Part shown: one piece after another, positions 37,624 to 62,367 of the stretch
Layout: every line of letters starts with the position of its first letter
Position numbering within the stretch: the stretch's first letter is position 1
NCBI RefSeq assembly: GCF_947623445.1
Contig: NC_135243.1
Location: forward strand, 22,080,479-22,144,478
Direction of reading: 5' to 3'
DNA: 64,000 bases
Source of the DNA: Clavelina lepadiformis
Taxonomy: Eukaryota > Chordata > Ascidiacea > Aplousobranchia > Clavelinidae
Translations under genes and position numbers: made by a program
The notes under the pieces: model-generated
Database searches by the model: none
Told to the model about the DNA's origin: nothing
Seen by the model: only the letters and a program-made list of their open reading frames with translations

Positions 37624-40600
37624 TCACCACCAACACTTTTTCGCACCCAACGCGTATAGACCTCCTCCAACCACTCCAGCAGCAGCTATTATTCCTAGCG
37701 GTGGCACAAGTATAGAACCAAGTCCTAAAGCAACACCAACGCCGGCTACTCCGCCTCCGGTTACCATCTTAAACTTCTTATTTTTCTTTTTCATCTCTTC
37801 GTATGTAGATTCTGAGGCTTCTTTTAAACAGGACAGAGTTGCAATTGCGTTCTCGTCGTCAAGGTTAGCATTTGTACGTTTGCGGCTGCTTTTAAGTAGT
37901 TTCTGCTGTTTTTTTTTCAAGGACTTTGGAGAAGTGAAACGACTCATCTGGAAAGTACGTCTTAAGTTATGTTCAAACTTTAAATTTCTACATAGTATTG
38001 TTTCATAAGTTTCATTGCTTACTTTCCGAGCTGCTTTAAACAGAGGTTATCAAATTTTTATCAATGGAGCCAATAACGAATGGCTTTGGGCAAATCTTTA
38101 CCTTTTTTAGCTTCTCCTTGTGTTTTCTACACTCCTCTCCCAAAATTGCTTTAGGTTCTTCTGCTAACTATGAAAAAGATGATTATTGTTTATAGGATAT
38201 AACGTTACTTATTTTTTACAGCAACAGTCACAATGTTTTTAGAATAATTGCGTAGTAGAAATATATTTTTTAATATTGTATCAATAAAGAGCAGCGCATT
38301 GAAATGTCTTTATCATAAAACATTGTGTATAGGCATTGCCTACAGTTTTTCACTTCAAGTTAAATATATGGTTACATATTTTTCAACTTCTTTATCGATT
38401 TTTATTTTTAGTTGCATTCTGCCATCTTCGTGTAAATTTTCATCAATATTTTCTATTTCTTTGTTAAATTCTTGAAATAATCCATCTTGAACTTGACTAC
38501 TATGCTCTTCAAAATTTTCCGAGTGTGGTTTCTAGGTAACAAGCAAAAATGATTAACTCCAAAATATTTTTAATCACAGATCCTTTTTGAATAATTTTAT
38601 ATTAAAAAGTATGTGGCAACAAAGAGCAAAACATTCCTAATCGTTAATTGCTCTTTTAAATGATATTCAGCAATACTGTACAAGAAAACATGTCCGAAAT
38701 TTATCAAAGGAATGAAACGTTGTAAGAAATTAAAAAATAAATTACCTGAGATAAAAGCACGTACAAGATTGCTCATACGTTGTAAATTATTTTTTTACCT
38801 TGATCCTTATCAACCACGAATGAGCTAATTTATTCGATACTTTCTCCAAATGACGTTGATCAACTTGAGTCTGTTTAATGGGAAAGTTAAAGGTCAGCAC
38901 TTTGCAATCACTCACATAAGGTTGCAAACGCCCACAAAAATGTTTCAAACTTTCCCTAAGTTACCTTCATCGCTTTAAAAATTAACAGTACATTTTTTGT
39001 TAAATTGCTTTTTGCTTTAATCAGGCTTTGACTGTCAATTTCCACAAGATTAGTTTCAAGATAAGAGTTGACTTTTTCTTGCATTTCGTCATGTATCTTT
39101 TGGAACTCGAAAAGGTCAGTGAAATTTTTCCCCTGCAAAATCACAAGAGGCGTCGTATATATGGATAACGAATTTAAACAAGTAATAAAGAAAGAAAGAG
39201 AAAGAATGTGGTTGAAACAAAGAAGGTGATGCTGAAAGAAGAAGAAAATCAAAACAAAAAAACAAAGCGGGAGAGAGAGAGAAAGTTGAAAATACAAGTA
39301 AAATTGAATAAAGCTACATTACCATGCCAGTTTGATACATTTTGATGCATTCTTCAGCAAGCTTATCATTTTTTTCTTTGTTTTGTTCCACAACCTGAAA
39401 ACACAGAATCCGGGATGAAGTTTAGGAAAGTGAAAATTTACAGTATATTGTAGTTTAATATTAGCCTATGTTTTTGAATGCATCAGTTAAAATCCTCTGA
39501 TACAGCTTTGTACTCAATAAGCATTTTAAAGTTAATCGTACAAATATCGAAGAAAGACAACGAAAATGGTAAAAACTTGAGTTAAGTTTCAACATAACAT
39601 TGTATTGGAGTTAAATTACATAGATTTTATCAATTTCTTCTTGCAATTTCTTTTGTCCTTTCATTCTTATTTTTTCTTTGCTGTATTTTGATTTATCTCG
39701 AAACGCATCAAAAGCTTCCTTTTCACTCTTTTCATGACGGTATTCGAGAGAAGTTTCGTGACATTTCTATGTGAGTAAGTAATTAAGTTCTTTACAAAGC
39801 AATAATAATCATTAAAGCTCGTTCAGGTGACCTGAAAACGCAAATACCTGCAAATGTTTTGTATAGATATTTACGCATTTGAAGACAAGAAGTTCCATTT
39901 TAGCTGCCTTGCCTGCCTATAATAATATGACATACATTTAAAGTTTTTTATTAAATTTGGTTTTCAATTTAATTACGTTTGTGTGGGGTTGACAGTTTGA
40001 CACCATGAGGGTAAATGTCGATACTTCTGTAAAAAGAACAAAAAACTAGTTTATCAGTAAATATTACATTCTGCAAAACTGTAATTCAAAAGAAAAAGTC
40101 TTTGTATGCATTGAATACTGTACTAGATATTGAACACTGTTGACATGAACGCATTTTTACAGAGTTATGCAGAGTTGTTGAAACGGAGTATGGTTACCTC
40201 AAGATACGATTCTACAGACTCGGTTGATTCACTGTTAATGACGTCAGCGAATTCAATTGCAAATTTATGTAACTGCTCACAAGTTACTACTTCATTGTCT
40301 ATCTTCTTCACATTCCCCAAACCAAGACTGTTCTCATCGTAAAAGGTGGAAAAAAAATTTACTGCAGTCTTCAAAAATTCAACATCAATCTCTAAAAAAA
40401 TGCAATAACACTGTTAAATATTTCTTAGCTTTTTAAAAATTGTTTGTGAATTATAGATTTAACGTCTCTAATAAAGTAAAAACAGCTCGTAAACACTAAC
40501 ACGATTGCACAATGCAACAAATTATTAAATTGTATTTCACAAGAAAAGATTGTTACCATGAACAGAACATGCTTTTAATTTCGATCCCATTCTTTTTACG

Positions 40601-42284
40601 TTAGGGCCTGGAGAAGGCCAAAGAAAACACGACATTCCAGAAAACGTTTCTTCTAGTAAAGTTTTGGTGTCAATATGCTCTTGGGCCCCATTTCCGTGCA
40701 ACACTGTTTTGAGATAAGAATTTCCTCCTTCGACACCGTGAGAATGGTCGTCAACCATCTCCCAATCTCGAATCAAAAACATAAAATCCTGGCAACCAGA
40801 GCTAAAGTAAGGTTTCTAAGATTTTGTCGTTGCGAGGTAATCATAACAACGTGTTGTTTTATTACAGGCACGAATGTCAATAAAGATAATATTTTCGTCA
40901 TACTATGAATTCAATTTACAGCGCGCCTTCCTGCGGTTTTTATTCGAGAGTTAAGTGAAAAAAAGTAAAATAAACATTTTACCAACCTGAAACGGACAAC
41001 TGTATTTTGTATCTTTAACTTTGGTCGCATACTCTGCAAATTTCTATGAAAATATATCAAAAAATTATCTTATCTGTGGCTAGACATATACTCAAACAGA
41101 TATAGGCTTTTAATTAAATACAACACAAACTATACTAACGCTCAAAGCTTGAAGATAAAGGCTGTCAATTTTATCTTTAAGATTAAAGAATTGATAGGAG
41201 CTGAGTAGGAGACTAAGAGCGAGTAAAATGGCACTTTCTTCAGTGCTAGACATGTGATCGAATGAACCCTGTGTGTCCATAAGGAATAGAGCCACCTGTG
41301 CCAAAACAAAGAAAATTAAAGTTACTGGTTGAAGAAGTAATGAGCAGAGAACAGTTTTCATAAAAGCATAAGATTTCAAACTTGCTGAAACACATTTTGC
41401 AACCGATTAACATAAGACACTAAACATTATAAGTTCGGGCTTTCTAGTTTACAAAATCATCTCGTAAAAGGTTTCAAATTTGTTCTGTAACTGTGAGTAT
41501 AAGATGTCTAACTATAAGATTAAGGTTTTATCAAAATCACCTCTCCGTTTTGTTGGGTAGAGATTATGTAAGGCTCCGTGGTGATCCATATTCCTTCTGT
41601 GCAACGCTCGCTTGCTCCTCCTCGAAATTTAAAGGGTCCTAATATTTGATCTTTGTCGTTGGGATTAAGCTGCAGTGAAACGCATTTAGTTGTAGAGGAT
41701 CATTTAATGATCATTTCATAACTTCTAAGTAACACCGACTGCATTATTGACTGCATTTGTACAAAATTATCTATAGTACATATCAGTACAAGTATCACGA
41801 AAGTATCATTCATATGTTTTTAAGAATAAAGTAAGTTTTTTTTTAGGTTGTAGAAATAAACATACGCTTTTTCCTTCCAAATAGCGAACAAACAAATTAA
41901 ACAAGAAAGATTTTCCTGTTCGAAAAGGTCCCGCTACCGAATAAACCGCAACTGGATACTTTGCTACGGTTGGATTTCCCAGCACTCGCTCAAGAGCGTC
42001 TTTATTTAAAGTGGTTTTCCCGTTTTCTTTTTTGATGATATTAATTACTTCAGAAGACGTTGCTGCTGAAACATGTAAATTTTAAACAATCCTTCTTATA
42101 TTGTACCGTGCTTAAAATTAAAAGAATGAATGCACTCATTTTAGTATTGATTAGAGAGTTTTCTAATTTACTCACCAAAAGCAGTTTTCAACATTTTTGT
42201 TCCTGCGTCTACTCCATCTGATATTTGACCAAACAACCGCGACGCTGCCTGTTCGTACACATGCGATTCTAGCGGAATACTCAT
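37624..42284 (-). CDS. atlastin/GBP-type GTPase, copy 1 (716 residues)
   Basis: Fifteen exons on the minus strand: 42284-42176, 42065-41866, 41669-41541, 41295-41140, 41043-40987, 40788-40557, 40391-40198, 39916-39848, 39766-39620, 39394-39323, 39132-38965, 38870-38799, 38531-38376, 38167-38102 and 37947-37624. All junctions are canonical and in frame. The GB1/RHD3 GTPase domain shows the P-loop GPFRTGKS (82-89, with the Arg-finger position R85), the switch region CTEGIW, the DTQG motif (153-156) and the RD motif FLIRDW (R224-D225). Spacing and wording (LFLMDTQGSFD, FFNLKDKI, PFQ) are atlastin-like. The stalk (360-609 and beyond) is built of repeated helical exon pairs. Residues 670-710 form a Gly-rich hydrophobic hairpin around VPP, and the protein ends CWW. 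Atlastins fuse ER membranes and GBPs act in cell-autonomous defence; which role applies here is unknown. Confidence 0.9.
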
Positions 42285-44007
42285 TCTAATTGTGTTGTTT
42301 AAACTGACTGCTGGAGAGATGTGCGAGTCTTAATTATTCTCATACACTCAAATTTGACTAATCCCCAAACTGTAAAGTTGATAAAGATTAAATTAAAAAA
42401 TATCTTTGAAGCAAAATATAACACGATTCAGCCGAAATTATGTAGAGTATCCACGCATTTAAATAAAACAAGATATAACACAACCTTCAGTATTGATGGC
42501 GTATCTGTTGCGTTAAAGGCATATCACATAGAAATCAAGAAAAGCTACGTTGCCGTGATTGCAACCTTTGTTTGTCTTGTGTAGTGCGCTTAATTACCTT
42601 TGCAAAAGGTACAGTTTATACACCAGAGCTGGTTACATATAGACACAAATCACCAATTATTAAACGGACGTCAGAGCAAAAGTAAACAAATATGTGAAAA
42701 ATAACAGCGAAATAGAGCGTTTTGGCAGATTAAGAGTCTAAACCTCTAAGATGCAAGCTCCACTTTTTAAAGAAAGTGTTTTAACGTGTTGACCTGTATA
42801 ATGTTTGCTGGCAGGTCAAAACAGTATAAACTCGTATTCTATGACAAACTACGGCTGATAGCAGAGTTTACTTTGTTCATAATATCACACTCAAGTCGTT
42901 TTCTGAGCTTAAATTTTAACCCAATACAAACAGTATCACGCAGTGACTTCAATTATCCTTTGTCCGGCACAAAACGAAAATTGTAAGCTATAGCCTTTAA
43001 TATTTTTCGCGTCTTTTGTCAAACAGAATTTCACTAACTGTCAAAAATCGTTTTATTTTCAAAAACTAATTCAGAAAAACGATTTATTTTAGAAAAATAT
43101 ATTACACCTGCCGATGATAAAATCGTCCCCTCTTTGAACATACAAATAAGCAAATTACAAAAAATAGGGTCATTGGAAAATATAATGTTGCTTGAGGCTC
43201 TTTTGAGGTTTGTTGCTTGAGGCTCTTTTTTAGTGAGGATTATACGATAGGAAGCGCTTTGCCCAAATCAGCTTTGATGGTTTATTTGATCAATTTTTTG
43301 AATCTAAAAACAGCGACAGAGTTGCATCCAATCCTTCTTGTCTAGTTCACTTATTTCCGTTCATTTATGAATGGCAAAATCGCTATGACGTAACCAACGG
43401 TCAATACTCGATCGTTATGTAGACGCCCATAGACCCAGTTAGGCTGTTAGTACAAGCATGATTTAGAATTAGAATCACATCAAAAAGTAAGCAAGTAATT
43501 TAACCATAAAAAAATGTAGATTTTTCAAAGCAATTCAAAAGATTGAGGACGTTTTCTCGATCCAAAACAAAAAGTCAAAATTTTAGATTTGTAAATATCA
43601 AATACATCATCTTTATAACAAAAAAGAAATTAGCAAGTACTTTTTAGAGCAAATAAAGTTTTAATAATACATAATAATCAAGTTTCTCTTTTTTTAACTC
43701 TCACAAGAATATTTTTTGAAGGTATTACAACATAGGCTACAATTATACAAATATCATATAAAACATCTACAAGACAACTTCATTTTGTCAACAAGAAGGC
43801 ATCGGTTTAAAAAACTTTGTTTCTTGATTGTAACTAACTAAAAGGGTTTACATTAAGATTAAAAAACATAAATTTTTCAAAAAAGTAAGACCTTGTAGAC
43901 TGGATAATTGTAAGCATGTAACTGAAGTAGATTTTGCTGAAGAATATTATATTGCAAATTGGAAAAATTATGTAAAACTGTGCATAACATCATCAGAATA
44001 AAGTAAT
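42285..44007. other. spacer between GTPase copies 1 and 2
   Basis: AT-rich, no supported gene. Just upstream of the copy 1 ATG there is an acceptor-like 'ctctccagcag' about 25-30 bases away on the gene strand. Confidence 0.4.
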
Positions 44008-47000
44008 TCACAGCTCATAATTACTCGCTCTACTTTTGTACATGACCCCCAGCCCCACACCACCTAATCCCAGTGCAATGGAAACAGGTGCTGGTAATAC
44101 GGCAATTCCAGCGACTAGGCTAACTCCAGAAATGGATGCTAAACCTAGACCAAGGTGTTTTTGAAATTTTTGATTTCTTTCAAGAACAGAAATGAACGTT
44201 GAATCCGATTCTGTCTTCACCGAGACGTTGGTTTCTCTTCCACGATGAAGATCCAGATCAGCACGAGCGCGTTTTCGGGTATCTTCAAGTAGGTCTTCTT
44301 GTTTCCTCTTCAAAGAGGTAGGAGTGGTGAAGCGAGATGCCTGCATAATGAGTTACTTTACGTCTTTTTGTAGTAATTCGAAAAATATCCATGATGTAAA
44401 GTTGTATTTTTAATGGATTAAATTGTAAGTGTAAGATAAGTTAAAATATTATTCATAATTATTTGCTTGCCCCCGTTAGTTGATCTTTATGCTTTTTTAT
44501 TTCTTCATCGACAATTTGAGGAAGAATTTCTTTCAACTACAACAACAAACTATTACTGTTAAATGAAAAAGGAAAGATTTTTTCTTTGGTAATAATTAGT
44601 TATAGGCCTAAACACCAAGTAATTACAAATAAAACAAAATAAACAAAATGAAACAAAATAAACAAATTATTACATATTTTTGAACTTTGTTGCTAATTTT
44701 TGACTTAAGATCGTCTTTGGCTTCATCAAGTAAATTATCATCAACGCCTACAGCGGCGTTTTTGAACTCTTCCAATAATTGTTGTTGCGCTTGACTGCGA
44801 CGCTCTTCAAATGTTTCAAAATGGAGTTTCTGCAACATGCAACATTTTCCTCGTAACCACTCATTGTTAAGGTTAGGCTACATAATATTAGGATGGTTTA
44901 TTAATTTAAACAATATCGTTGATAGCGTTCAGATAAAAGTAAATGCACAATTAAATGATGTAACTTTTTCGACAGAAATGGGAAGAAGCCTATCAAGTTG
45001 GTTTAGTTTCATGTATAAATAGCTTTAAATTCGACATAGATTAAAATACATTTTACGAAGATTGCAACATTTTACCTACCCCAAATTTTTCCCGCCACTT
45101 GTTGGCCACTTGTTTTGCTAATTCGCTTAAATGACGATAATCTACTTGGGGCTGTCAATTGTGAAAAGTAATTAACCATATTCAAAGAAACTGTTTGCAA
45201 AATTATCTTTTATAACTTTTTTAAAGAAATAAATTAATGATTTTTTACTCTTGATGCTAATTAAATTGAATTCGAAAATTCTATTAACAAAATGATTCTA
45301 ACTGCAAATTAAGAAAATTACCTTTATAGTTTTGTACAAAAGAGAAACTTTTTTCTGCAAATTCTCCATCGCTTCCTCCAAGCTATGGTCGTTTATCCAC
45401 ACATGTTTGCTTTGAAGATGAGTCTCAGCTTGTTTGATGACATCAGAATGTGTGTCGAAGAAATTTTTAATGTTCATGAAATTTTTCTCCTATGAAGTTA
45501 TCGTAATGTCATCAGCAAAATATAATTTTTTAATGCAAGCGCAAAATAAAGAGAGGAGCAGAAAGAGAGAGATTAAGAAAGAGGGATAGATTTTCAAATG
45601 TAAACCCGTTTCCGTTACCATGCCAGATCTATAAATATCTACACACTCTTCAAGAAGTCTTTTGTTTTTTTCTATGTTTTGTTCCAATACCTGTTAAATA
45701 ATGATAATGCGATTAAAAATTGCAATCTAAGTTTAAAAAAAATTTCGGCATAACAACAGCTGTAACTTACAAGCAAACATATAAATCGACTTACATATAT
45801 ATCACTGAGCTCTTTCTGTAGTTTTGTCTCTCCGTTTTTCTTAAGAACTTCGTTGTAATCTTTTGATTGGTTTTCGAATTCTTCAATAGCTTTCATTTCT
45901 CCGTTTTCATGACGATTTTTAAGGGACTCTTTGCCAAATTCCTGCATAACAGGTAAATGTCTGAAAAAATTTTAAAATGTTTGTTTCAAAAACTGTCATT
46001 TTTGTTAAAAGTTTCTCACCTTCAAGAATTCTTTGTAGATATTAACACATCTGTGGATGAGCAGTTCCATTTTAGCTGCTTTACCAGCCTGTTAAACATT
46101 TCTATTTTTATCAATATATCTTACATAAGCTTATATTATATTGAGGAGTTTGAATATGTATAACACTGATTTTTAGAAGAACTTGTTAAACAAATTAGCA
46201 TAATTTATAATGCGTTGGTTTTACGAAATATCATAGCTTTTAAACCTATCTTGTTCAACACAGCATGGTTGAAGCGTGCAAGTGAAGCAAGATCCAAACA
46301 TGCCAACATGCTCAGAACGGATCGAAGCGTGAGCGTCTACAACATGCTGTAATTTCCTTGTAATGCTTATATCAATTTAATAGGTTTACCTCCATATAAG
46401 ACTCAACACTATCCACACACTCCTTGTTGATAACATCAGCAAGAAGAATTCCAAATTTTAGCAAATCTTCACACGTTACTTGCTCATTATCAATCTTTTT
46501 CAAATGAATTCCTTTCTCCTCAGAAAAATATTCAAAAAAGCTTGACGCTATCTTCAAAAATTCTTCGTCAATGTCTGAAAAATGTCATTTACAGTACAAT
46601 ATTTCCTTAAAAGTCATTAAACTTTTAAAAGATGTTTAGACCGACGTACCCGGTGCAGATTTCTGAAAATTGTCATAGGACCATACTCGGACGAAAAGAA
46701 GAAAAACTTTATATAAGATATCAGAAATATAAGATTTTATTTTTACCTTTTAATGTACACGCAGTGGCTTTTTCACCCATCCTTTTTATATATTGACCGG
46801 GTGGGGGCCAAAGAAAGCAAGAAATATAGGAAAATGTTTCTTCAAGCAATGATTTTGTATCAATGTGTTCCTGTGCTCCTCTATCTTTTAACACTGTTTT
46901 GAGATAAGAACTTCCACCTTCGATTCCGTGAGCATGATCCTCTTTCTCCCAATCTCGGACGAGAAACATCAAATCCTACCAGGAATAGGAAAAATAGTTC

Positions 47001-48459
47001 AAAAACAACTAAAAATCGTACTTTGCATGACAGCAATGTCAGTGAAAGTTAGCGAAAACAATTTCAGCACCAACTCAAAATTATTTGAAAAAACTTATGA
47101 ACGAAGAAATATGTGGAAATGCTTTCGTTATTATGAACACTTCTATGGTTTTTTCAATAAATTAGGCTCTTGTTTTTCTATACCAACCTGGAAGGGAGAG
47201 GCCGATCTTGTGCCTTTAACGTTGCTCGCATACTCCGAAAATTTCTATTAAATATCGCGATAAACAACAATGTAAGGCGTTTTGCACTACTAAGATCAAA
47301 AAATTATAATTCCATACCCAAACCATAGTATAATTCTCTTGCTTCACTTACGCATAAAGCTTGAAGGTAAAAACTGTAAATTTTGTCTTGCAGGTTAAAA
47401 AACTGATAGGAGCTGAACAACAAGCTTAAGGCAAATAGAATTGCACTGTCCTCAGTGCTAGACTCAAGATCAAACGAACCTTGAGTATCCATCAGAAATA
47501 GTGCCACCTTACAGAAAACAAAATACTTCTGTACCTGTATGTTATCTAAAAATGTTTGCGTGCATGCAATTGCAACAAACATCATATTTTTTTAATTATT
47601 TAAAAGTAAATAATTTGGTGTAAACGACCAAATCTGGGTAGGATCATTTTGTACGATTCCAGATTTGCCATGCATACCTTCTTGTCCTTTTTAGTGGAAA
47701 TTATGTGTGGTTTACATGTGATCCATATTCCGTCCGTGCAACGATTACTTGCTCCTCCTTTGAATTTAAAAGGGCCTGTAATTTTCTCGTCATCATTTTG
47801 ATCAAGCTGAGTCGAAAACAATTATATCGCATAAAGCATTGTTAAAGTTAAAGTAACAATGCCAATCACAAAGTGTTAGTGTTAATCAGTAATCAATAAA
47901 TATTATGAAAAATTAGAAAATTTAAGCTATAAGTTGGTTATTGGAAAACTAGATCGGAGAAATAGAAAGAAAAACTTTACCGTTTTCTTCTCCAAATAAC
48001 GAGCAAAGAGGTTGAGCAAAAGCGATTTCCCGGTTCGAAAAGGACCGGCAATAGAATATAAAGCAACCGGAAGATCTGACACTTCTGGATTTCCTAGAAC
48101 TGATTGCAAAACTTTTTCATCTAAACTGACTTTTCCCTTGTCTTCTTTGATAATATTGACTACTTCATGTGAGGCGTTTGCTGTGCGCATAATACATATC
48201 AAACTGTGTATAAGATGATAATTAATTAGGTAACTAACAACCATACAACGCCAACACCACCACAATCAACACCACAAAACTATCAAATAAATAACAACCA
48301 GAAGCTATTACAGTACAAGAGTGCAAGTAAACAGATGTCTTAAAACCCAGATATGATGCTTTTAATGCTTAATAATAACTAGTTTGGTAATAATTTACAA
48401 AGATTTTCCTTTTCATTTTGCAATGTTGATCTTGTCTTACTTGAATACTGCTTCGCCAT
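44008..48459 (-). CDS. atlastin/GBP-type GTPase, copy 2 (about 685 residues)
   Basis: Exons, minus strand: 48459-48441 (tentative), 48180-47981, 47806-47678, 47507-47352, 47244-47188, 46975-46747, 46574-46390, 46088-46020, 45941-45795, 45690-45619, 45489-45322, 45151-45080, 44829-44674, 44536-44471 and 44340-44008. Exon order and most exon lengths equal copy 1. Motifs: GPFRTGKS (52-59), CTDGIW, DTQG (123-126), FLVRDW (R194-D195). The same exon-pair stalk follows, then a C-terminal hydrophobic stretch (LGLGLASISGVSLVAGIAVL, turn at PAP, then a Gly-rich half). It ends NYEL, not the Trp-Trp of copies 1 and 3. Intron 14 starts with GC (GGG/GCAAGC), the known minor donor. The six-residue first exon is chosen only because it supplies an ATG, a GTAAGA donor and the right phase; the N-terminus may be longer or elsewhere. 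Confidence 0.85.
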
Positions 48460-48755
48460 TTAGTTCCTTCAGCTTTTTGAACTTTCCTAATATCAAAATC
48501 TTTGTTGTTAGTAATGAATTTTTTAATGCTGCCTCATCTGTTTAAAAAGCTGTAACAAGTTGGTTATTTTATTTCCTTAAAAGTATTGGACTAACAACTA
48601 TTTAGATTGACGATGGTGAACAAAACATGATGATAATTAATAGGACACCTGATTATCTGTTCCGATACGCACAATATTTTTGCCGATTCATAAGCAAGTT
48701 AGTCACATAAGGTTTCCGTTAGGCTGAAGAACTATTGACAATGCTATACTGTACC

Positions 48756-49403
48756 AGTGGTTCTCAACCGGGAGACACTTGCCTCACTACGGGAGAAATA
48801 TTTAATTTCTGCAAAGGAATTTATTCAAGGGAGAGATTGGGGCGAAAAAACTGTGAATGAAGAAAACTAAGTTTGAGATAAGAAAAAAGTTTATTTTTAC
48901 CACTACGTGTTCTCAAAAGGTAGAATATATGCTGTTATAGCCATTTTGAAATTGGACAGATGTTATCTTGTATATCCTGTAAAACAGTAGCTTTATAGCC
49001 GATAAAGAACTCTTGGGCTATTTTGTTTGACAAACGCCGTCCTTCCATACGTAGACAAAAATTGCCAAATTGCCGTCTCTCTACTAACAGATTACAACAC
49101 TTATTTTTTCGCCAAATTAGCTGTATTTGCAGAGTAATCACTTCTGCCGCTTCCATCGTCATCGTCTTTTGCAAGCGCGGTGACCTTTGACACGCTTTTC
49201 TCTTGGAATTCCACGGACACGGATTCTCCTCGAGTTTCTCAACATGGCGCTCGGAATTCTCATTAGGGTTGAATAAAAATTTGTTTGGTTAATTTGTAAA
49301 ATTTTTGTTTTGCAATAAAACAAGATTTTTGTAATTTCTGAGCAACTGACAGTGTTTCTGGTTATTATGGAAAGCAAATCGAAAATACGCTGAAAACCAC
49401 TGT
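48756..49403. mobile_element. possible decayed hAT-like element
   Basis: 'cagtggttctcaacc' at 48756 and 'cgctgaaaaccactg' ending at 49403 are imperfect inverted repeats of hAT type. Flanking octamers match poorly, so the boundaries are not proven. A frame inside (48935-49174, minus) with ERRQFGNFCLRMEGRRL may be a transposase relic but was not recognised. The right part is also inside the duplicated flank. Confidence 0.35.
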
Positions 49404-51270
49404 TTTAGACCGACTGTTCAAAATTTAGAACCGTTAAAAATGATGACGTTTCTGTTGAACATCTGGCCTGGGGTTTGGCATACCCGCAGTGTAAACCATT
49501 ATATAATGTTTTAACTGCAGTCTCTTCAACCTTGAAAAATGTTTTTGAATAAGCTCATATGTAACTTACTACGCTTCGTCCTAACTCAAAATACAAATAT
49601 AAGTTTCAATGAAATATCTTACTACTGCAATAAACGACTTTCAACCAATTATTATCAACGCGACAATTCGCAATTGATACATAAGGCACACATATGACCA
49701 TGACGAATGCAAACGGCACATATTGTGTGGTTGTTTTCCGGTTCACACCGACATAGTAGTCGACAAACAAAGTGATGTGTTTGGAGTGGTTGCAATATTT
49801 ACTAATAGCTTGAGAGCTGTATCGTTTCGTTAATCATTAAATTATGTTTAAACGCTTCTTCAGATATAGAATTGCAAAGCATGAATGATCGCATGGTTGC
49901 AGCTGACGTACAAACTTTGTACACTCAAACAACACTCACAAACGGTTGCAAAATTCAAGTGGCAAGCAACGGGGACCGTTGTATGTGACTTATTGACATT
50001 TTATTTCGTGTCAGTTATAGTAACAACGGAAGAGATAACTTGGCTATACCTATACTCTTTCGTACTATTTTGATTGCAATAATCTGATACAGTTTGAAAC
50101 ACATTTTGTATGTGGCATAGAACAGAGGTGTCCACATATTTTTCACTGAGGGCCATGCACTAACGATGCTAACCAGTGGCCGGGCTATTCACTACGTGTG
50201 AAGATTGTTGCTTTGCTTACAACGTAATAAAGATTAGGAAGATCATTAACAATGCCATCGGTGGTAAAATTTATTCTGTATCTGAAAATACTAAACAGTA
50301 TGTCGAGGAAACATCACTTAAAGCTTTAAACAAATTACCCAACCGTAGCGACCCACTTGTCGCTGCAACTCTAAAAAGTGCAACAAACGCAAAGTCTACG
50401 CAGCTCAGCGCTATATAAGACAAATATCTAGAAAAAGTATTATTCAAATGATTTTATTCTGAAAATGGGCGAATAAAAGCCGACAATGCTTCATGGTTCT
50501 TTGTGGGTTCAGTGATGCGTTGCGAAAGATGTCACATAAACGCTTATTAGTCATCTTGGTTCTCATTATATTTTGATTAAGACTTATGTGTATATAACAA
50601 CAAAGATTTTTCTTTATATATGTGCTTTCCAAAAATTCCTTTGGTTTTGTCATATTTCATGTAACGCATAACAGCAGTTAACAGTTAACTTTTTAGGGTT
50701 TCGTGGAAGTTAGGACCATATACAATCGCAGTTCGATAGGTTATTCTTATTGTAATGCACAATTGCTTAATTGCTTCGTAATAACGTACCCTAACTTAGT
50801 TCACCTTAAAGTTAACGAAATGAAAGTAAAAAATCATAACTAAACGCACAGGAAAATAATTTGCACCTGAATAACGCAGTTTTATGTCAGATGAAACGTG
50901 ATGATGGTCGTGGACCATCCAAAAATACTGTAGGTGACGGGACCCAGTTGGCCCGAGGGCCGTAGCTTGGACAACCCTGGCGTAAAACCATATAACGTTA
51001 AACCCAGGAATGGAAACTCAATCTCGGCATCATTTTTGTAACCCTTGAGCGTTGCTTTAGTTAACGCATTTCTCCGCTTGCAGATAAACTACTGTTGTAA
51101 GCTCTTTTTGTCCAGTTCGTCATCACAGTCCAGGTTAAACAGTGCCTTGTCTTCAATGGCTGTTTTGGTTTAAGTCATTGTAATGTATTATGCCAGTACG
51201 CAGCCTATGTTATGTTACCTCTATCTACGTTAAACCTGTGATGTTTATTTTACGTACATGCGCTACGTGC
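49168..51270 (+). repeat. ~2.1 kb duplicated segment A (upstream of GTPase copy 2)
   Basis: Colinear with 57785-59826 and very similar by eye over most of its length: the inner translated frames 49885-50073 and 58542-58730 differ at only a few residues. It starts around 'ttgcaagcgcg' and ends around 'tttacgtacatgcgcta'. It carries a hAT-like element (50123-50979) shared by both copies. Confidence 0.85.
50115..50987. mobile_element. hAT-like MITE inside duplicated segment A
   Basis: Element 50123-50979 begins 'cagaggtgtccacat' and ends 'gcttggacaaccctg', with facing 'gagggcc' and 'ggcccgagggcc' motifs inside the ends. Flanks 'gcatagaa' and 'gcgtaaaa' match at 6 of 8 positions. The frame 50176-50418 lies wholly inside it and is not regarded as a gene. 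Confidence 0.65.
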
Positions 51271-53293
51271 AAAAGCAATTTCAGCCGTTAGGAAAAAACA
51301 TTTTTGGTTCCTGTTCTAGGCCACTTTGGCTGCAGATCCTCTACCGCGATTCCAGCGACCTGAGGAAACTTATAACTTATGAAGTTATGAGCGCCAAGGT
51401 AGAACAGCTCACCATTTTACCTTCAAAAGGACACAACAGACTTGAGGGTAACTTTAATATTTTCATTCGAATTTTTAACGAGAGAAAAATGCCGCTTTTC
51501 AAGCTCATCTCCATCATAACTGATGTATTATTATCATTGGTCGCACCAGTGGGTTCATTACACTGTGTAAGGAAAGTGAACCTTTCCTGGATATGCTGAA
51601 ATATTTCTGTATCATTCGTCAACAAGCGTTGTGTTGAAAGATTGTAACTGAAAGTAATAACTGATACCACCTGGCAGACTGCCAACTCTTAGAAACAAGC
51701 TTCGACATTCCTGATTATGAGAAGTTAGTTTCCTCTTCCCAGTTCCAAGTCTTTCACTAAGGTTGGAAAAGATTTCCTTATTTGAAATTCAGCGAGCCCT
51801 GTTTTGTGTCTGGTTTATTTTTGAGTTAAGTTCATAGAAAGGTCAGTTACGGCTATTTCTCATCATACAGATCGGAAGGATAAAGGAGTAGGAGGAGCTA
51901 GTATCCACCAGAACACAATGTGCAAACTGAAACTGTGTTAAAGAATTTTTGTGTCTTCTTTTTTGGTAGAAATAATTAGGGTTTGTGATGTTATAGCCTA
52001 TACCGCATTACGTGAAAACAAAGTAAATATTCGCTAATCGCAGGCTGAAAATGGTATGTGTAGTTTTGCGATGCTAAAAATTTGACCGGCTGATCTCACG
52101 AAGTTATAGCCACTTAAAACGAAGACCTTGGGTGACAAAAAGTTGGGCACCCTAGTCTTCGCTAAGTCTCTATCTTGCCTTTCTTATGTGGTTATTTACT
52201 TTAAATCGACGTTCTTAGAAAATGCTCTTTCTCCTAGCTTTCATTACAAACAGATGTTTATCTCCAGCTAAAGGGAAGCGTATTTAACACATCTCTACAG
52301 TACTGTAACTTCGTCAGTCAGTCAGCTTTGTAACTTTTAGCCTCATTGAGCATTCTATTGTGTTTAATAATACTTCTGAACGTTATCAATAAAACAGATC
52401 GAATTTCTTTTATTAAATAGGTATTTTATTATATCAATTTACATTGTTCGCAGATATATTACAATGATCATATTTCAAAGAATTTGCTGGTAGGACTACA
52501 TAAGAGAAAATAGCACTGTTTGCAAGCTAACATCACTACAACAAAAACGATATAATTTCATACGCACAATTACAAACTAGGTTTAAATTAAAGTTATAAA
52601 TTTCTAAACGGGTTTCTTTATGCAAATTTTAAATGCATTAACCATTACTTCATTTTTCTACAAAAAATACAATATAGTAGCCGTCCAATCGTAGCCAGGA
52701 AAATGTCTTTCATATTGTGGTTAACAAATTAAATCAACAAGGCGGCCATAACGCTTTTAACTTTAATAGTATTTTAAGCAACTGTATTTTATTGAAACAG
52801 ACAAATAAGTATTTAATCTGCAGAGCAAAATTTCCAGGCAAAAAAAAGTACAGTATTATTTGGAAGGGGTTCATTTTGGAGCGTTTAACTGATTCAGTAA
52901 AAAAGCATTATTTGAAATATATTTCTCCGCCTAAAAACATATATTTTTTACATTTATTTGTATAAAATAAGCTTCAGCTTTTAAAAAAAAAATTTCTATT
53001 GATAGTAAGTTAGTTTTGCAACAAGATTTCAAGTTGAAATAAGAACCAAGCTACAGTAAAAATACATTCTACCGATAACCATCAAATTCTCAAATTAACT
53101 TTCAGAATATAAAGGTTCTAGTTAAATCAAACATAAAATGTGGGACTTTAAATCCTGTTTTCCCTTCAAAAAATTTAATAAAATGCAAAGTTAATTGAAA
53201 TCCCAAATCATGTTTCCAATCAGGTCGATATTTAAGAGAAACCAAATTCTAACATTCAAACCCAACTGACAAGCTTTCTTGTATATGTCTATT
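51271..53293. other. spacer between segment A and GTPase copy 3
   Basis: AT-rich, no supported gene. An AATAAA on the minus strand near 52953-52958 (about 335 bases after the copy 3 stop) could be its polyadenylation signal. Confidence 0.4.
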
Positions 53294-56200
53294 TCACCAC
53301 CATGAATCTTTTGCTCCTATGCCATAGAGCGCACTAATTCCTGCTCCAACACCTAGAGCAATTCCAACTGGTGGAAAGACGATTCCCAAACCAACACCTA
53401 ATGCCCCAGCACCTCCGGCTGCACCAAACCCTGTTACCATTTTTACCTTCCTATTTCGTTCATTGACCTCTTCATATTTCGAATTTGACTCTTTTTCCAC
53501 GGTCGTGTAGGTGTTATTTCCATTCATTACATCTAAGTCGACATCTGTACGTTTTTTACTTGCTTTAAGAAGATCCTCTTGAGCTGACTTCAAGGAGGGA
53601 GGAGGAGTAAAGTAGCTGCCCACCTATAAACAAATAACGATAATCAAAGTTTTGTCAGTATCAACAACACACATTAATTGCTTTCTCTTCATGTTCTGGT
53701 ATTTGAAATGGTACCTTCTCAGTAAATGAACAACATGAAAAGTTATTGAAATCAAATACCTTTTCAAGTTCGGTTCTGTGTTTTTCTGTTTCTTTATCTT
53801 CGATTAATTTGCGATTCTTTTTTAACTGTATACAAGATGAAATGACACCATTTCAAAGTTTGAATAAATCTTATGAAAACAGTTATATTGAAGTTGTTTT
53901 TGTATTTAACAAAGTAAATGTTTAAATAAACGTTTCGTTAAAGAATAAAATGTTCGTTCAAACTTATTTTTTAAATTGACGTTAAAAATAAAGCATTCTT
54001 ACGTAATTTTTCATGAAATTGTTGATCTTTTTTATGAGAATGCTTTTTCCCTTTTCATTCAAACTTTTATCAAAGTTTTTTGTTTCCTCATCAAAACACT
54101 CCAATAATTCACTTTGTACTTGATCACACCGTTCTTCGAATTTTATTGAAGGTGTATTCTGCAATGAAATTAAATTAACACTACTATGAATTCATTTGAA
54201 AGAAGTTGTGTATGTACTGCTAGATCTTCATTACATCTAAACTTGTAGAATTGGTTTATAGCTATATACTGGAAAAAGCGTAAACTGGCATTGTTAAATA
54301 GTTTTTTTGTCATTCAGTTGACATAAATACGAAACAGCAAAGTAGTTTTTATGCGCAGTAATTATACTTTATACAGTAGTGATAGTAGTAGGCCTACTTA
54401 TGATTCTGATTACAAATTTTGACATTTCAATGATACCTCGAAATGTTTGAACCACTTTTCTGCCACTGTTTCAGCTGCGTTTTCCAAATAACGATGTTCT
54501 ACTTGCCCCTGTTTGAATGCACATGTGCGTGTATTGAGTACACGAGCTTAAACAACGACGGGAAAATAAAATGTTTTAGGTTTAGAATTAAGAGTTACCT
54601 TCATTGATTTGAACATTGACATTATTTCCTTTTTTAACTTGTTCAATGCTGTAGCTAAGCTATTATCGTTCATCTTGATATGATTAGCTTTGAGACGATT
54701 TTCAGCGTTTTCTTTTTCATTAGAATGGACTTTCAGGAATTCTTCAACGCCTGAGAAATCTTTTTTCTGCAGAAATACTTTGCTAGTAGTTGGCAGGAAG
54801 TAAGGAATAACGAAAATTAACAGTAAATTACAATTTATAAGGCTTACCATATGCATTCTGTACATTTCAACACATTCTTCTAAAAGGGCGTTGTTTTTTT
54901 CTTTTTTTTGTTCTAAAAGCTGTACAAACAGCATTTAAAAACCAAGATGCAATATTGCGAGATACTTTGTTTAAAAATTTTAGTAACTGGAAATTAAAAT
55001 GCACATAATAAATTTCTACTTTACTTTAATAGGCATTTGGACCGAGACCACATAAAATATTATAGTTGACCTTATAATGGTTTGAATATACTGAGTAAAA
55101 AATAAACATCATTTGTATCTTGTAGTAACAATATACGTTAAAAATGATCCGATCAAACTATTTTTGAAAGCATTGATTGTTGAAAACATATATGTAACAT
55201 CAAACAGATACAACTCGATTTTAAAAATTTAAATGATGGTTATTTAGTCTAGGAATTGAAACAATAACAATACATATATATTTTCAATTTCTTGCAGCAA
55301 ATTCTCTTGGCCCTTTATCCTGAGGTCTTTGTTACCATGTTTCGATTTTTCTTGAAACTCATTGAGAGCTTTTTTCAAACCACGTTCATGACGCTCGTTG
55401 AGTGGTTCATTGCCAAAATTCTGTAAACAGAAACTAGGTTTACTGTGAGCGACCAATCGTTTGATAATTATTAACTCTCATTAATTTCAGTTATTGGGTA
55501 ATTTTCAGTTGGTAGCGTTCTTACCTGCAAGCACAATCTGTAGATGTCAACACAATCGCGGAAGATAAGTTCTATTTTAGCTGCTTTTCCCGCCTGTAGC
55601 GATTGATACATATTTGTAAGAATGAAGCATACATGAAGTTAATTTCTGCTCAATTTTAGATTATAACTTTCCTCAAAATATGATTCTACTGTATCGATTG
55701 ATCCTTGGTTGATGACATCAGCAAAATGACTTGCGAATTCATATAGTTTCTTGCAATTAAGCTCTTCTGCGCCTTCCCGCTTCACCATGAGATTCTCATT
55801 CTTATTCTCAAAGCAGAGATAATGGAAAAACTCAGTCGCTTTCTTCATAAAGACAAGGCCGACATCTGACAACAACGTTGCAATACTATTTTTAAGAACG
55901 AGATTTTGAAAATAGTTTTTGAAATATAAACCTGACTGTTAATAATAAAACTATTTACTATAAAGTTTTAAGGCAACGCAAAGAAAGAGCATGGGTTTTC
56001 ATTAATTTAAGGTATTATTACCTTTCATATCACAAACTTTGGAGTTTTTCCCCATTTCTTCGATTTTGGGAGCTGGAGAGGGCCAAAGATAACATGAAAG
56101 CTCCGAAAAGTTTTCTTTGAGGAATTTGTTGGTTTTGACGTTTTCATCTGCCCCGTCATCTCCGTCAAGAACAGTCTTGAGATAGCATTTTCCACCATAC

Positions 56201-57471
56201 AAACCGTGCTTGTGATCTTCTATTGTTTTCCAGTCACGAATAAGGAACATGAAGTTCTGTTCCATAAAAAACCAAAATAAATTTGTAAAAAGAATTATCT
56301 TGTAACTATTGAAAACAGAAATACTCAATTACACTAAAATTATAGGTTTGTATTAAAATGAGTTTACGGTATGCCTTAAGTCCAAGTAACGGAATTGAAT
56401 AGCTAGTTACTAACCTGGATTAAAAAGCTAGACTTTGTATCTCTAACATTTTGTGCATACTCTGCAAAGTTCTGAAAAATCGTGAAAAGTTTTAGTTAAT
56501 GCGAAATTTCATAGCAATGCTATAAATCAATGTTAGTTTTTAGGTTGTTTTGTGAAAATAAACGTAAAATAAATCTTAATGCAATTTACCCCCAAAGCTT
56601 GAAGATGAAGGCTATCGATGCTGGTTTTCAAGTTAAAGAATTGGTAGGAACTGAGTAACAGACTTAAGGCGAATAAAATTGAGCCTTCCTTTATACTGGA
56701 CTTTTGATCAAATGCACCTTGTGTGTCCATAAGAAATAGAGCAACCTGCGTAGGAAGCGATGAATCAAAGTTGGAAATAATTTTTAGTACTTTGATATTT
56801 TTAATCATACCTTTTTTTTGGTCTTGGTGGAGATTATAAATGGTTCCTTCGTAATCCATATTCCCTCCGTGCAACCTTCACTGACTCCACCTTGGAACTT
56901 AAAAGGTCCAGTGAGCGGCTCTTTGTCGTTTGGGTCAAGTGGTGGTGGAACACTTTTTGTGGTCTTTTTACATAAAAGATTTATCGTGTTTGTCAAATTG
57001 AAACTTGTCGGTTAATGGAAGAAAAAAGTATCTTAATTAAAAGAAAACTTAACTTAAAACTTAAAAAAAACTTTTAATTGGGTATATCTTAAAATAGAAT
57101 TTACCATACCTCTCTTCGTTCGAAATAACGAACAAACAAATTGAGCAAAAAAGATTTTCCAGTTCGAAATGGGCCTGCCACAGAATAAATTGCAACAGGA
57201 TATTTTGCCACTTTCGGATTTCCAAGAACCTTTTCAAGAACGCTTTTATCTAAGTTAATCTTTCCATTCTCTCTTTTGGTAATCTTTATCGCCTCAGTCT
57301 CGTTTACTGCAAAATATATTGCACTTTTTTTAACGACGTAAATTGTTATTACTGCAAAAAATGAAGACAAATCAAGAAAGGTAATAATGATTTTAATCCT
57401 TTTTACTTACAGGATGTTGTAGAATAAAAATCTTCGTCTTCGTTTGAAAATTTTAACACATCAAAGTCCAT
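53294..57471 (-). CDS. atlastin/GBP-type GTPase, copy 3 (about 710 residues)
   Basis: Exons, minus strand: 57471-57411, 57306-57110, 56963-56811, 56745-56590, 56471-56415, 56256-56022, 55865-55672, 55593-55525, 55420-55274, 54919-54848, 54766-54599, 54508-54437, 54158-54003, 53825-53760 and 53623-53294. Motifs: GPFRTGKS (65-72), CTEGIW, DTQG (144-147), FLIRDW (R215-D216). Exon 3 needs an acceptor 24 bases further out than in the other copies and so adds eight residues (TTKSVPPP). The exon 7/8 join conserved in the paralogues would require a GA donor (GAG/GAAAGT). A canonical alternative uses GT four bases on (exon ending 55668) with an acceptor 13 bases inside exon 8 (exon from 55580) and stays in frame, at the cost of the conserved AGKA. 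The C-terminus is a Gly-rich hairpin around FPP ending DSWW. Confidence 0.85.
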
Positions 57472-57784: not shown

Positions 57785-59826
57785 TGCAAGCGCGTTGACC
57801 TTTGAGCAAAGCTGACAAGGATTCTCCTCGAATTTCTTTGTGAATTTCTCCACGTGACGGTCAGAATTCTCATTAAGGTTGAATAAAAATTTGTTTGGTT
57901 AATTTGTTAAATTGTTTTTTTGCAATGAAACACGATGTTTGTAATTCATGGAAAGGAGCAGTTCACAGTGTTTCTGGTTTGTAAAGGAAACACATGAAAA
58001 ATACGCTGAGAAGCACCGTTCAAAACTGTCAAATCGCACAACCATTTAAAAATGATGACGTTTCTGCTGAACTGGGCTTGGGTTTGGCATACCCGTAGTG
58101 TAAACCATTATAGCCTATAATGATTTAACTGCACTCTCTTACCTTTAATCTCGAAAATTAGTTTCGAATAAGCTAAAAATTTACTAAGCTTTGACCTAAA
58201 TCAAAATACAAATACAATTTCCAATGAACTATCTTACTGTTACATTAAACGGCGTTTAACCAATTTAATTATCGACATGCGACAACTAATTAATGCGACA
58301 ACTCGCAATTGATAAATATGGCTCACATATGACCGTTACTCTTATCACTGCAACACATGACAAATGCAAATATAATGTACTCTTTGGCTGTTTTCAGGTT
58401 TACCCCTGTAAAGCAGTTGTCAAACAAAGTATCATGTTTGGAGTGATTGCAACACTTACCAAAGGCTTGAGAGCTGTATCGTCTCGTTAATTATTAAATC
58501 ACGTTTAAACGCTTCTTCAGATATAGAATTGCAAAGCATGAATGATCGCATGGTTGCAGCTGACGTACAAATTTTGTACACTCAAACAACACTCACAAAC
58601 GGTTGCAAAATTCAAGTGGCAAGCAACGGGGACCGTTGTATGTGACTTATTGACATTTTATTTCGTGTCAGTTATAGTTACAATGCAAGAGATAACTTGG
58701 CTATACCTATACTCTTTCATACTATTTTGATTGCAATAATCTGATACAGTTTGAAACACATTTTGTATGTGGCATAGAACAGAAGTGTCCACAATTTTTT
58801 CACTGAGGGCAATGCACTAAAATGCTAACCAGTGGCCGGGCTATTTACTACGCGTGAAGATTGTTGCTTTGCTTACAACGTAATAAAGATTAGGAAGATC
58901 ATTAACAATGCCATCGGTGGTAAAATTTATTCTGTATCTGAAAATGCTAAACAGTATGTCGAGGAAACATCACTTAAAGCTTTAAAAAAATTACCCAACC
59001 GTAGCGACCCACTTGTCGCTACAACTCTAAAAAGTGCAACAAACGCAAAGTCTACGCAGCTTAGCGCTATATAAGACAAAGATCTAGAAAAATTATTATT
59101 CAAATGATTTTGTTCTGAAAATGGGCGAATAAAAGACGACAATGCTTCATGGTTCTTTGTGGGTTCAGTGATGTGTTGCGAAAGATGGAACTCTTCTACA
59201 TGTAACTCATGTACATGTAACTCATAACAGCACTTAACAGTTAACTTTTAAGGGTCTCGTGGCAGTTAGGACCATATACAATCGCAGCTGGATAGGATAT
59301 TCTTACTGTTTTGCACACATATTAAATTTCTTTGTAATAACGTACCCTAACTCAGTTTATCTTACAGTTAACGAAATGCAAGTAAAAAAATCACAACTAA
59401 ATGCACGGGAAAATAACTTGCACCTGAATAACGCAGTTTTATGTCAGATAAAACGTGATGATGGCCAAGGACCATTCAAAAATACTGTAGGTGACGGGAC
59501 CCAGTTGGCTCGTTTCTTGGACAACCCAGGCGTAAAACTATATAACGTTAAACCCCCGATGGAAACTCAATCGCGACATCATTTTTGTAACGCTTGAGCG
59601 TTGCTTTAGTTAACGCATTTCTCCGCTTGCAGATAAACTACTGTTGTAAGCTTGTTTTGTCCAGTTCGTCATCACAGTCCATGTTAAACAGTGCCTTGTC
59701 TTCAATGGCTGTTTTGGTTTGAGCCATTGTAATGTATTATGCCCATACGCAGCCTATGTTTTATTAATTATTATCTTTGTCTACGTTAAACCTGTGATGT
59801 CTATTTTACGTACATGCGCTATGTGA
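57785..59826 (+). repeat. ~2.0 kb duplicated segment B (upstream of GTPase copy 3)
   Basis: Partner of 49168-51270 in the same orientation, lying 5' of copy 3 as segment A lies 5' of copy 2. The offset between the segments is about 8.6 kb, close to the gene-to-gene offset of about 9.0 kb, so gene and flank were probably duplicated as one unit. Confidence 0.85.
58772..59537. mobile_element. hAT-like MITE inside duplicated segment B
   Basis: Counterpart of 50123-50979: element 58780-59529 starts 'cagaagtgtccac' and ends 'cttggacaacccag', with the same flanks ('gcatagaa' and 'gcgtaaaa'). Its presence at the same site in both segments dates the insertion before the duplication. Confidence 0.65.
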
Positions 59827-60358: not shown

Positions 60359-60609
60359 ATTACACCACTTTAACGTGATCGGACCTAATTATTTTTTTAC
60401 TGACATTAAAGTAAAGATTATTGCCGTGATTATTCTTGGCGTGACGTGTTAATGTAGCAACGAATCCCCTACAAATAGTCCAAATGCATTTGAAACAAAA
60501 ATGTATGTCCCTTTGAATCCTTGACAATTTTGTCGGTGTACCGTCAGCTGATTTTTGGCTAACCGAAGCGCCCTGGAAAACTCTGAAAAACTTTTTGCTT
60601 GCTTTTTGT

Positions 60610-61012
60610 GGTGGTCGGACGACTCAACCCACGGACGATTCAACCCGGACAATTCAACCCACGGACGATTCAACCCAGGACTATTCAACCCCGGACGATT
60701 CAACCCACGGACGATTCAACCCGCGGACGATTCAACCCGCGGACCATTCAACCGCGGACGATTCAACCCACGGACGATTCAACCCGCGGACGATTCAACC
60801 CGCGGACGATTCAACCTTGGACGATTCAACTCTGGACGATTCAACCCACGGACCTTTCAACCCAGGAAGATTCAACCCAGGACGATTCAACCCCGGACTA
60901 TTCAACCCGCGAACATTTCAACCCACGGACGATTCAACTCCGGACGATTCAACCCGCGGACGATTCAACCCACGGACGATTCAACCCGTTGCCGTTCAAC
61001 CCCATTCAACAA
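60610..61012 (+). repeat. 16-bp minisatellite array, forward
   Basis: About 25 copies of a unit like 'ggacgattcaacccgc' or 'ggacgattcaacccac', with 15-bp and point variants. Because 16 is not a multiple of 3 and the unit makes no stop, all three forward frames are open with a repeating 16-residue pattern (e.g. RFNPRTIQPADDSTRG). These frames are repeat artefacts. Confidence 0.95.
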
Positions 61013-61429
61013 TGCCCTCAAATCACTATTTCTGTGTTCTCATCCGAACATTTGGTCATTTTTGGACGGTATAAAACGCGATATCGCGATACAACGGCTC
61101 GGTGCTCAAAACGCAGCAGTTGTTAATTTGGACCAACCACGAAGCAAATACACGCACCTGGCTCACAGACTTTCGGCAAAGGTTTGCAATTATGCAAATG
61201 AGCCAGATAAATTGATGTATCTGCGTGCAATCGCTCATATGAGCTAATTAATTACCGTTTGTAGTACCCTTTGTTTGTAGTAACAAGAAGTGGTAAAAGA
61301 AAGAAAGGAAACACAAAACGCTTTATATTAGCTTAGGCCTATTGCCGCCTATATATTAGCTTTATTTAGCTTACATAATATTGGCTACAAAGTAACTTGG
61401 TGATAACCTTATTAACCTAAGGCCCTAAG
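61013..61429. other. spacer between facing minisatellite arrays
   Basis: Ordinary unique-looking sequence between the arrays. No terminal repeats, target duplication or gene seen. Confidence 0.5.
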
Positions 61430-61712
61430 CCAATCGTCCGTGGGTTGAATCGTCCGCGGGTTGAATGGTCCGGAGTTGAATCGTCCGTGGGTTGAAAGGT
61501 CCGTGGGATGAATCGTCCTGGGTTGAATCGTCCGGGGTTGAATCGTCCGGGGTTGAATCGTCCGTGGGTTGAAAGGTCCGTGGGTCGAATCGTCCTGGGT
61601 TGAATCGTCCGGGGTTGAATCGTCCGTGGGTTGAATCGTCTGCGGGTTGAAAGGTCCGCGGGTTGAATCGTCCGCGGGTTGAATCGTCCGTGGGTTGAAT
61701 CGTCCGCGGTAT
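61430..61712 (-). repeat. 16-bp minisatellite array, inverted
   Basis: About 17 units of the reverse complement ('gttgaatcgtccgcgg' and variants) face the forward array across a spacer of about 415 bp. The pair could form a long hairpin. Confidence 0.95.
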
Positions 61713-62367
61713 GGGAAATGGTGTAGTGTAATGGTGGTTTAGGGATGACCTAAGCCAAACCAAGTCTTACAGTCTTATAGTCTGACTCCTATGATTGTCT
61801 TTGACTCCGTTGCGTTTACTGTCTCTATATTGCTTCTTAAATCAACACCAACTTCATAAAGTTTAATTTGTTATATTGTCCGAATAGGTTGTCACATCGA
61901 AACCAATTAATCATCATTCCACATTTTGAATAGAACTATTGTTTGAATTCAATACTGAATGTGGCAAAACGTAAAACAGATCCAAAACTAAAAACCGAGA
62001 GAAGTACTAGCAAGTCCTGAAGGGACAAGCCCTTGCAGAGACTCGCCGGCCCGAGCATCCAGAGCATAACGATTTGAACCAAGCTTAACGTTTTATATCA
62101 TACACGTCAGCCAATCAGCTAACGCCATGTTCATTTATCGTTGCTACGTGTATGTGTGTAATATCTATTATTCTACGAATCTACGTCATCCAAACATTTC
62201 ATCAAGTACACTTCAAACTTTACGCCGTAAAACAACGCTACTTGAAACACTTCAATCTACGTCAGCCCGCTACAAGCTTTGCACATTATTATCTGCCTGG
62301 AGAGAAATCAAAACTTTATGCAATGCCAATAAATATAACTAATTGCAATTTCTACATGATCCCCACA

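Follow-up and report, generated by a model that had tools for sequence, protein, structure and literature searches.

Tandem atlastin-family GTPase genes in the ascidian Clavelina lepadiformis, with a stalk that appears to be lengthened by copied exon pairs

What lies between the GTPase domain and the membrane anchor of three tandem, atlastin-like genes in the ascidian Clavelina lepadiformis, and how did it arise? The genes, here called A, B and C, occupy the minus strand of a 64,000-nucleotide stretch (C4:22080479-22144478; hereafter the window), and the genome searched for relatives comprises 209 Mb in 95 contigs. The original prediction held that the single three-helix bundle of atlastin is repeated here three to four times, through duplication of an exon pair. 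Comparison of family profiles supports exons 10+11 and 12+13 as further copies of the helix-2/helix-3 unit carried by exons 8+9. Because exons 14+15 show no similarity to the other modules, we count three copies and not four. We moderately favor the reading that A-C are dynamin-superfamily GTPases from an atlastin-like ancestor, with an arm lengthened by copied exon pairs and a defense role like that of guanylate-binding proteins (GBPs).

Gene models were assembled by hand with splice-site checking. Exons 8+9, 10+11 and 12+13 are referred to as modules M1, M2 and M3, and exon 14 with the first part of exon 15 as M4. Features are given in window positions, with the evidence for each; E denotes the expect value.

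37624..42284, minus strand: gene A, atlastin-family GTPase, 15 exons, 716 amino acids; splice-consistent model; Pfam GBP PF02263, E 3.8e-41
40198..42065, minus strand: gene A exons 2-7, GTPase domain with P-loop GPFRTGKS, DTQG and RDW, plus the first stalk helix; PDB atlastin alignment
39620..39916, minus strand: gene A module 1, exons 8+9, corresponding to helices 2 and 3 of atlastin's three-helix bundle; alignment with atlastin-1 and -3 extends to the module end
38965..39394, minus strand: gene A module 2, exons 10+11; hhalign M1-M2 of family profiles
38376..38870, minus strand: gene A module 3, exons 12+13; hhalign M1-M3 of family profiles
37624..38167, minus strand: gene A exons 14+15, pre-membrane segment, putative hydrophobic hairpin at residues 668-712, then 4 residues
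44008..48190, minus strand: gene B, atlastin-family GTPase, 14 exons found, 682 amino acids as modelled; Pfam GBP, E 5.5e-39
45795..46088, minus strand: gene B module 1, exons 8+9; gene model
45322..45690, minus strand: gene B module 2, exons 10+11; gene model and family profiles
44674..45151, minus strand: gene B module 3, exons 12+13; gene model and family profiles
44008..44536, minus strand: gene B exons 14+15, putative hydrophobic hairpin; the intervening intron starts with GC
53294..57471, minus strand: gene C, atlastin-family GTPase, 15 exons, 710 amino acids; ambiguous intron 7 donor; Pfam GBP, E 3e-40
55274..55593, minus strand: gene C module 1, exons 8+9; gene model
54599..54919, minus strand: gene C module 2, exons 10+11; gene model and family profiles
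54003..54508, minus strand: gene C module 3, exons 12+13; gene model and family profiles
53294..53825, minus strand: gene C exons 14+15, putative hydrophobic hairpin

The predicted layout of 15 shared exons was recovered in genes A and C. In gene B 14 exons were identified: exon 1 was not found in the hand model, and the first exon found opens with an in-frame ATG. The alternation of short and long exons was borne out in full, exons 8-14 measuring 23, 49, 24, 56, 24, 52 and 22 codons in all three genes. Introns 7/8 to 14/15, all expected to be phase 0, are so in A and B, whereas in gene C a phase-0 reading of intron 7 (55671-55594) requires an unusual ‘gaaagt’ donor. A phase-1 GT-AG option is present there, and it is the spliced aligner's choice in gene C as well as in three relatives outside the window (L009, L011 and L012). 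Intron 14 of gene B (intron 14/15; 44470-44341) has a GC donor. Apart from the stop codon, a spliced-alignment script reproduced all 15 gene A exons with identical boundaries; since A, B and C themselves supplied its profile, this result checks boundaries and is no independent evidence. The amphipathic helix said to be shared by the short exons stood in part: the quoted motifs are present, but the helical moment is weak, being mixed against shuffles for exons 8, 10 and 12 and no better than shuffles for exon 14.

To which family do these proteins belong? Searched against the PDB, a profile of A, B and C matched atlastin-3 best (205 bits, E 1e-59), whereas GBP5, GBP2 and GBP1 reached at most 46 bits, in agreement with the predicted atlastin relationship. 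Alignments to bundle-containing atlastin chains extend from profile positions 28-31 to 414-424, with exon 9 ending at 414; for two shorter atlastin constructs the alignment stops at 322. Exons 10-15 are thus located beyond the end of the solved atlastin alignment, which continues for at most 10 positions after exon 9, and the one bundle ascribed to known atlastins ends with exon 9. The GPFRTGKS P-loop, DTQG and RDW are intact in all three proteins. To judge by these alignments, A-C have the GTPase domain and first stalk unit (exons 7-9) of atlastin. Ranked behind the atlastins in the PDB comes ‘LOC432253 protein’ (PDB 9jju and three related entries), at 104 bits and well above the GBPs.

Exons 10-14 and part of exon 15 stand between the first bundle and a single C-terminal hydrophobic stretch, 41-45 residues long and carrying PP or PAP at its middle. 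Counted by eye, the arm from first stalk helix to hydrophobic stretch measures ~340 residues in A, compared with ~130 in the atlastin of the same genome. Just 4-9 residues trail the stretch in A, B and C, and an atlastin-type C-terminal tail is therefore absent. The proteins end in CWW, YEL and SWW, with no CaaX-type end. A CaaX lipid anchor is found in some GBP members.

A Pfam scan of A, B and C returned GBP (PF02263; E 3.8e-41 to 5.5e-39) and listed no other GTPase family, the RHD3/Sey1-type domain included. This raises the alternative that A-C are ordinary GBPs, whose apparent repeats would be the two GBP bundles plus long effector helices. The length after the GTPase domain is indeed close to that of GBPs. 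GBPs contain two three-helix bundles that share helix 9, followed by an effector domain (PMC9005921). The 205 bits for atlastin against at most 46 for GBPs argue otherwise, as do the hydrophobic stretch without CaaX-type end, a chromosome-6 relative with more than two units, and the lack of a GBP_C (PF02841) match in A, B and C in a scan to E 10, in which HMMER filters drop most matches above ~0.1. We regard this alternative as quite improbable; it was set aside on the Pfam scan and the PDB scores, units 2 and 3 not having been compared with GBP sequences. Sey1p was not among the matches listed in the PDB profile searches. Genome profile searches with PF02841 and PF05879 gave no matches, which does not show absence because the positive controls were likewise unmatched.

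The three genes belong to a larger set. With the GBP profile, at least 42 loci with a DTQG exon were identified, A-C included, besides one atlastin; they are spread over C3 (13), C2 (10), C4 (8), C9 (5), C6 (3), C1 (2) and C5 (1), and the idea of a local family, part of the original prediction, has to be abandoned. Twenty-two of the 39 loci outside the window were read (L009-L030). Four of these, L009-L012, belong to the C4 cluster: models of L010-L012 span the whole exon layout and that of L009 reaches into exon 13 only. In L009 (C4:22147500-22155800) the model departs within exon 13 and lacks exons 14-15, perhaps marking a truncated or recombined copy.

Did the exon pairs arise by copying? 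Each module was represented by an alignment of six C4-cluster genes (A, B, C, L010, L011 and L012; L009 was excluded for its incomplete model), and hhalign scores were compared with those of 100 column, 100 seven-residue-block and 60 reversed-block shuffles. The M1-M2 score of 29.3 was equalled by 0/100, 3/100 and 0/60 of these, respectively, and the M1-M3 score of 24.5 by none of any kind. In the M1-M2 and M2-M3 alignments short exon falls on short and long on long; M1-M3 is in register over the long exon and the last part of the short one. In all six C4 proteins, a hidden Markov model (HMM) of the unit places the unit start, by ungapped extrapolation, 2 (unit 2) and 1 (unit 3) residues past the short exon's first residue. 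It also produces a few near-zero-bit matches out of register, and a reversed stretch of L010 reaches 18 bits. Forward and reversed sequences cannot be told apart by bits alone, so the case rests on register and shuffles. Three atlastins alone align clearly with window M1 (29.9; 0/60 and 0/60 shuffles as high). Homology rests mainly on M1-M2, M1-M3, the register and the exon pattern, and three copies are therefore supported for the family as a whole. The expected similarity between exon pairs is thus beyond chance for 8+9 against 10+11 and against 12+13, weak for 10+11 against 12+13, and absent for 14+15: M4 scored within noise against M1, M2 and M3, and neither these comparisons nor one with the M1out profile described below supported a fourth module at exons 14+15.

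Does the unit recur outside the C4 cluster? A first unit training set contained chimeric rows (L016, L020, L023 and L029, with the first short exon joined to a later long exon), which entered the ‘M1all’ and ‘M1out’ profiles and one unit HMM; the window comparisons M1-M2, M1-M3 and M2-M3 are unaffected. The claim for distant paralogs consequently rests on atlastin-based profiles, namely an HMM of three atlastins and a second version with four C4-family rows added, both applied to the other 18 loci. With the atlastin-only HMM, at least two separate long exons were matched in 4/18 loci: four in the chromosome-6 relative L022, two of them strong (E 4e-6, 9e-4, 0.05 and 0.25), three in L024, also on chromosome 6 (1e-4, 0.12 and 0.19), and two each in L019 (0.03 and 0.05) and L027 (0.03 and 0.21). 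The best of 3340 reversed open reading frames gave E 0.5; since an L025 match at 0.28 looks spurious, we treat matches above ~0.1 as marginal. The HMM with C4 rows matched two long exons at E <0.05 in six of the 18 (L019, L020, L022, L023, L027 and L029), and in two of those six, L022 and L027, two exons fell below the best reversed value of 0.0037. In the remaining members one long exon or none was matched by the HMMs, which does not show absence.

The chromosome-6 genes were examined further. By eye, their downstream exons retain the atlastin-like loop before helix 3. When atlastins were compared with the sets of chromosome-6 pieces, m2 and m4 were equalled by 0/60 in both kinds of shuffle and m3 by 1/60 and 0/60; the chromosome-6 first unit against m2, m3 and m4 gave 0/60 in both. 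These sets were picked from HMM matches, a choice that the shuffles ignore, and 2 of the 12 pieces (L022_3 and L022_5) are in no set. Judged by these profiles, repeated units are present in at least one other branch, and may have arisen once or separately. In C. lepadiformis, a repeated stalk is probably present in further members of this large gene family.

Several results weigh against copied exon pairs. The M2-M3 score is weak (14.7; equalled by 4/100 column, 3/100 block and 5/60 reversed-block shuffles), and within single genes pairwise z scores are uneven: exon-pair comparisons, named by their first exons, are higher for C8-C12 (6.7), B10-B12 (5.0), B8-B12 (4.8), A8-A12 (3.9), B8-B10 (3.1) and C8-C10 (2.4), and near chance for A10-A12 (0.5), A8-A10 (0.3) and C10-C12 (-1.5). 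The three atlastins match window M2 modestly (17.0; 0/60 and 0/60), with the register slipping in the second half, and their score with M3 is not clear of controls (15.6; 2/60 and 4/60). Comparisons of chromosome-6 sets with the window modules are mostly noise or out of register, the two shuffle kinds equalling them in 51 and 51 of 60 (C6m2), 7 and 8 (C6m3) and 18 and 40 (C6m1) for M2, and in 2 and 8 (C6m1), 0 and 3 (C6m3) and 0 and 1 (C6m4) for M3. In a spliced search with repeated generic units, run with four shuffled controls per step, unit 1 was above controls in A, B and C, unit 2 was not in A, B, C or L022, and unit 3 was slightly so in B only (3.8 versus at most 1.3); in other relatives, unit 2 was clear in L023 (13.7 versus at most 1.2) and slight in L024 (4.6 versus at most 2.5). 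A PDB search with a stalk-only profile, finally, ranks the mite allergen Der f 21 (E 0.005) above atlastin (E 0.027).

Exons 10-15 might accordingly be a generic coiled coil from elsewhere, in which case the likeness would reflect the composition and periodicity of helices, and the regular exon pattern would be coincidence. The Der f 21 ranking, the 18 bits gained by a reversed protein of the window family with the first unit HMM, the largely negative spliced search in A-C and the module pairs at chance would all fit. Under this explanation, seven-residue-block shuffles should not fall short as they do (3/100 for M1-M2 and 0/100 for M1-M3 as high), the register relative to the exon start would not be constant in six proteins, and neither the alternation of short and long phase-0 exons nor the tandem units of the chromosome-6 relative would be expected. 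We consider it unlikely.

What might these proteins do? In a tree of the GTPase part (27 rows, without L025), the seven C4 genes group together (100/99), their nearest neighbors being from C9 and C5. Some copies are recent (A and L010 are 95% identical, C and L009 97.8% over 544 residues), and by identity the family contains copies of different age. The true atlastin of the genome (L001; C7:12756778-12757578) is one intronless open reading frame of 562 amino acids, whereas the relatives modelled have many introns. Among A-C, identity is 69-83% in exon 4 and 29-42% in exons 11-13. Exons 8 and 10 (54-70%) are as conserved as GTPase exons, a further count against our reading; it is thus not the whole stalk that diverges fast. 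In the upstream flanks of B and C (window 49699-51217 and 58356-59766), four common blocks of 87-97% identity occur at a spacing of 8.55-8.66 kb, even though protein identity between B and C is only 47%; possible causes are two insertions of a mobile element or a recent exchange.

The large expansion beside one intronless atlastin suggests GBP-like, cell-autonomous defense over upkeep of the endoplasmic reticulum (ER), and a birth-and-death defense family would fit the clustered expansion, the recent copies and the divergence of exons 11-13. A role in immunity rather than ER upkeep is, on our analysis, probable. Were A-C instead housekeeping duplicates of atlastin that fuse ER membranes, with a longer arm of neutral effect, the intact GPFRTGKS (a P-loop with arginine), DTQG and RDW and the C-terminal hydrophobic stretch would be expected. 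That the genome has a separate atlastin, that exons 11-13 diverge relative to exon 4 (though exons 8 and 10 do not), and that the 4-9 residues past the hydrophobic stretch leave no atlastin-type tail make this alternative an unlikely one.

For atlastin, membranes are described as being brought together by GTP-driven dimerization of heads that face each other across them, along with motion of the helix bundles (PMC7326814; PMC12312388). If A-C descend from an atlastin-like ancestor, with six exons following the first stalk unit and a hydrophobic stretch at the C-terminus, each long exon would provide the long helix common to successive, putative three-helix bundles. The stacked units would yield an arm two to three times as long as that of atlastin, as units inserted between bundle and membrane should, and the hydrophobic stretch would form a membrane hairpin. 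On GTP binding, the GTPase heads would dimerize between facing membranes, and the swing of the arm would pull these together or keep a wider spacing. The predicted function is GTP-driven tethering at larger distance; as the atlastin C-terminal tail is lacking, tethering may prevail over fusion. More tentatively, and possible rather than probable, the phase-0 exon pair of helices 2 and 3 would be a modular spacer, multiplied to different copy numbers in ~40 loci to give graded tethers that would replace absent GBPs in defense.

How do A-C compare with known systems? Atlastins (ATL1-3 and Drosophila ATL) share with them the GTPase domain, the first three-helix bundle and a hydrophobic stretch near the C-terminus, but have a single bundle followed by membrane segments and a C-terminal amphipathic helix that A-C lack (plan as given in PMC12312388). 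Sey1p/RHD3 resemble A-C in an atlastin-like plan with a longer helical domain ahead of the membrane segments (PMC9804665; PMC3866526); they differ in that no Sey1p is among the PDB matches listed, the comparison being by description. GBPs belong to the same GTPase superfamily, form gene clusters and have more than one bundle, two sharing one helix (PMC9005921), whereas A-C match their GTPase domain weakly and have neither a GBP_C match nor a CaaX end. The silkworm has five atlastin homologues, one of which, BmAtlastin-n, is an antiviral paralog of 770 amino acids with a coiled-coil middle domain (PMC4926086). Like A-C it is an atlastin paralog with a GTPase domain, compared here by description only; unlike them, with their putative membrane hairpin, it is described as lacking transmembrane segments. 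According to the same paper, a search of Ciona revealed no GBPs (PMC4926086).

Elsewhere in the window, open reading frames on the plus strand at 5714-7848 encode leucine-rich repeats, a cysteine-rich flank and a membrane-like segment (by eye), with the look of a receptor gene. A minisatellite at 60517-61766, with repeats such as DSTRGRFNPRTIQPAD, leaves several frames open on both strands.

No description of repeated-stalk tunicate atlastins was found in the literature searched, subscription papers being mostly outside it. Papers retrieved with atlastin and Ciona were, by title and the start of the abstract, none about tunicate atlastins, those listed on repeats and stalks dealt with Drp1, and in the ascidian literature searched the term guanylate-binding protein appears only in a peptide table. 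A longer arm as such is already known, since GBPs with two bundles and Sey1p/RHD3 with a longer helical domain precede it. What seems new, from the gene models and profiles, is that a metazoan family of atlastins has its arm extended through multiplication of an exon pair. If true, the family would be a natural series of atlastin-type machines differing in arm length, and would allow a direct test of the role of the arm in tethering and fusion. For Sey1p, where this question arises as well, a spacing function at ER junctions has been suggested for the longer bundle (PMC9804665). The family may also be a candidate answer to the question, raised in PMC9005921, of whether atlastins assumed GBP-like defense where GBPs are missing.

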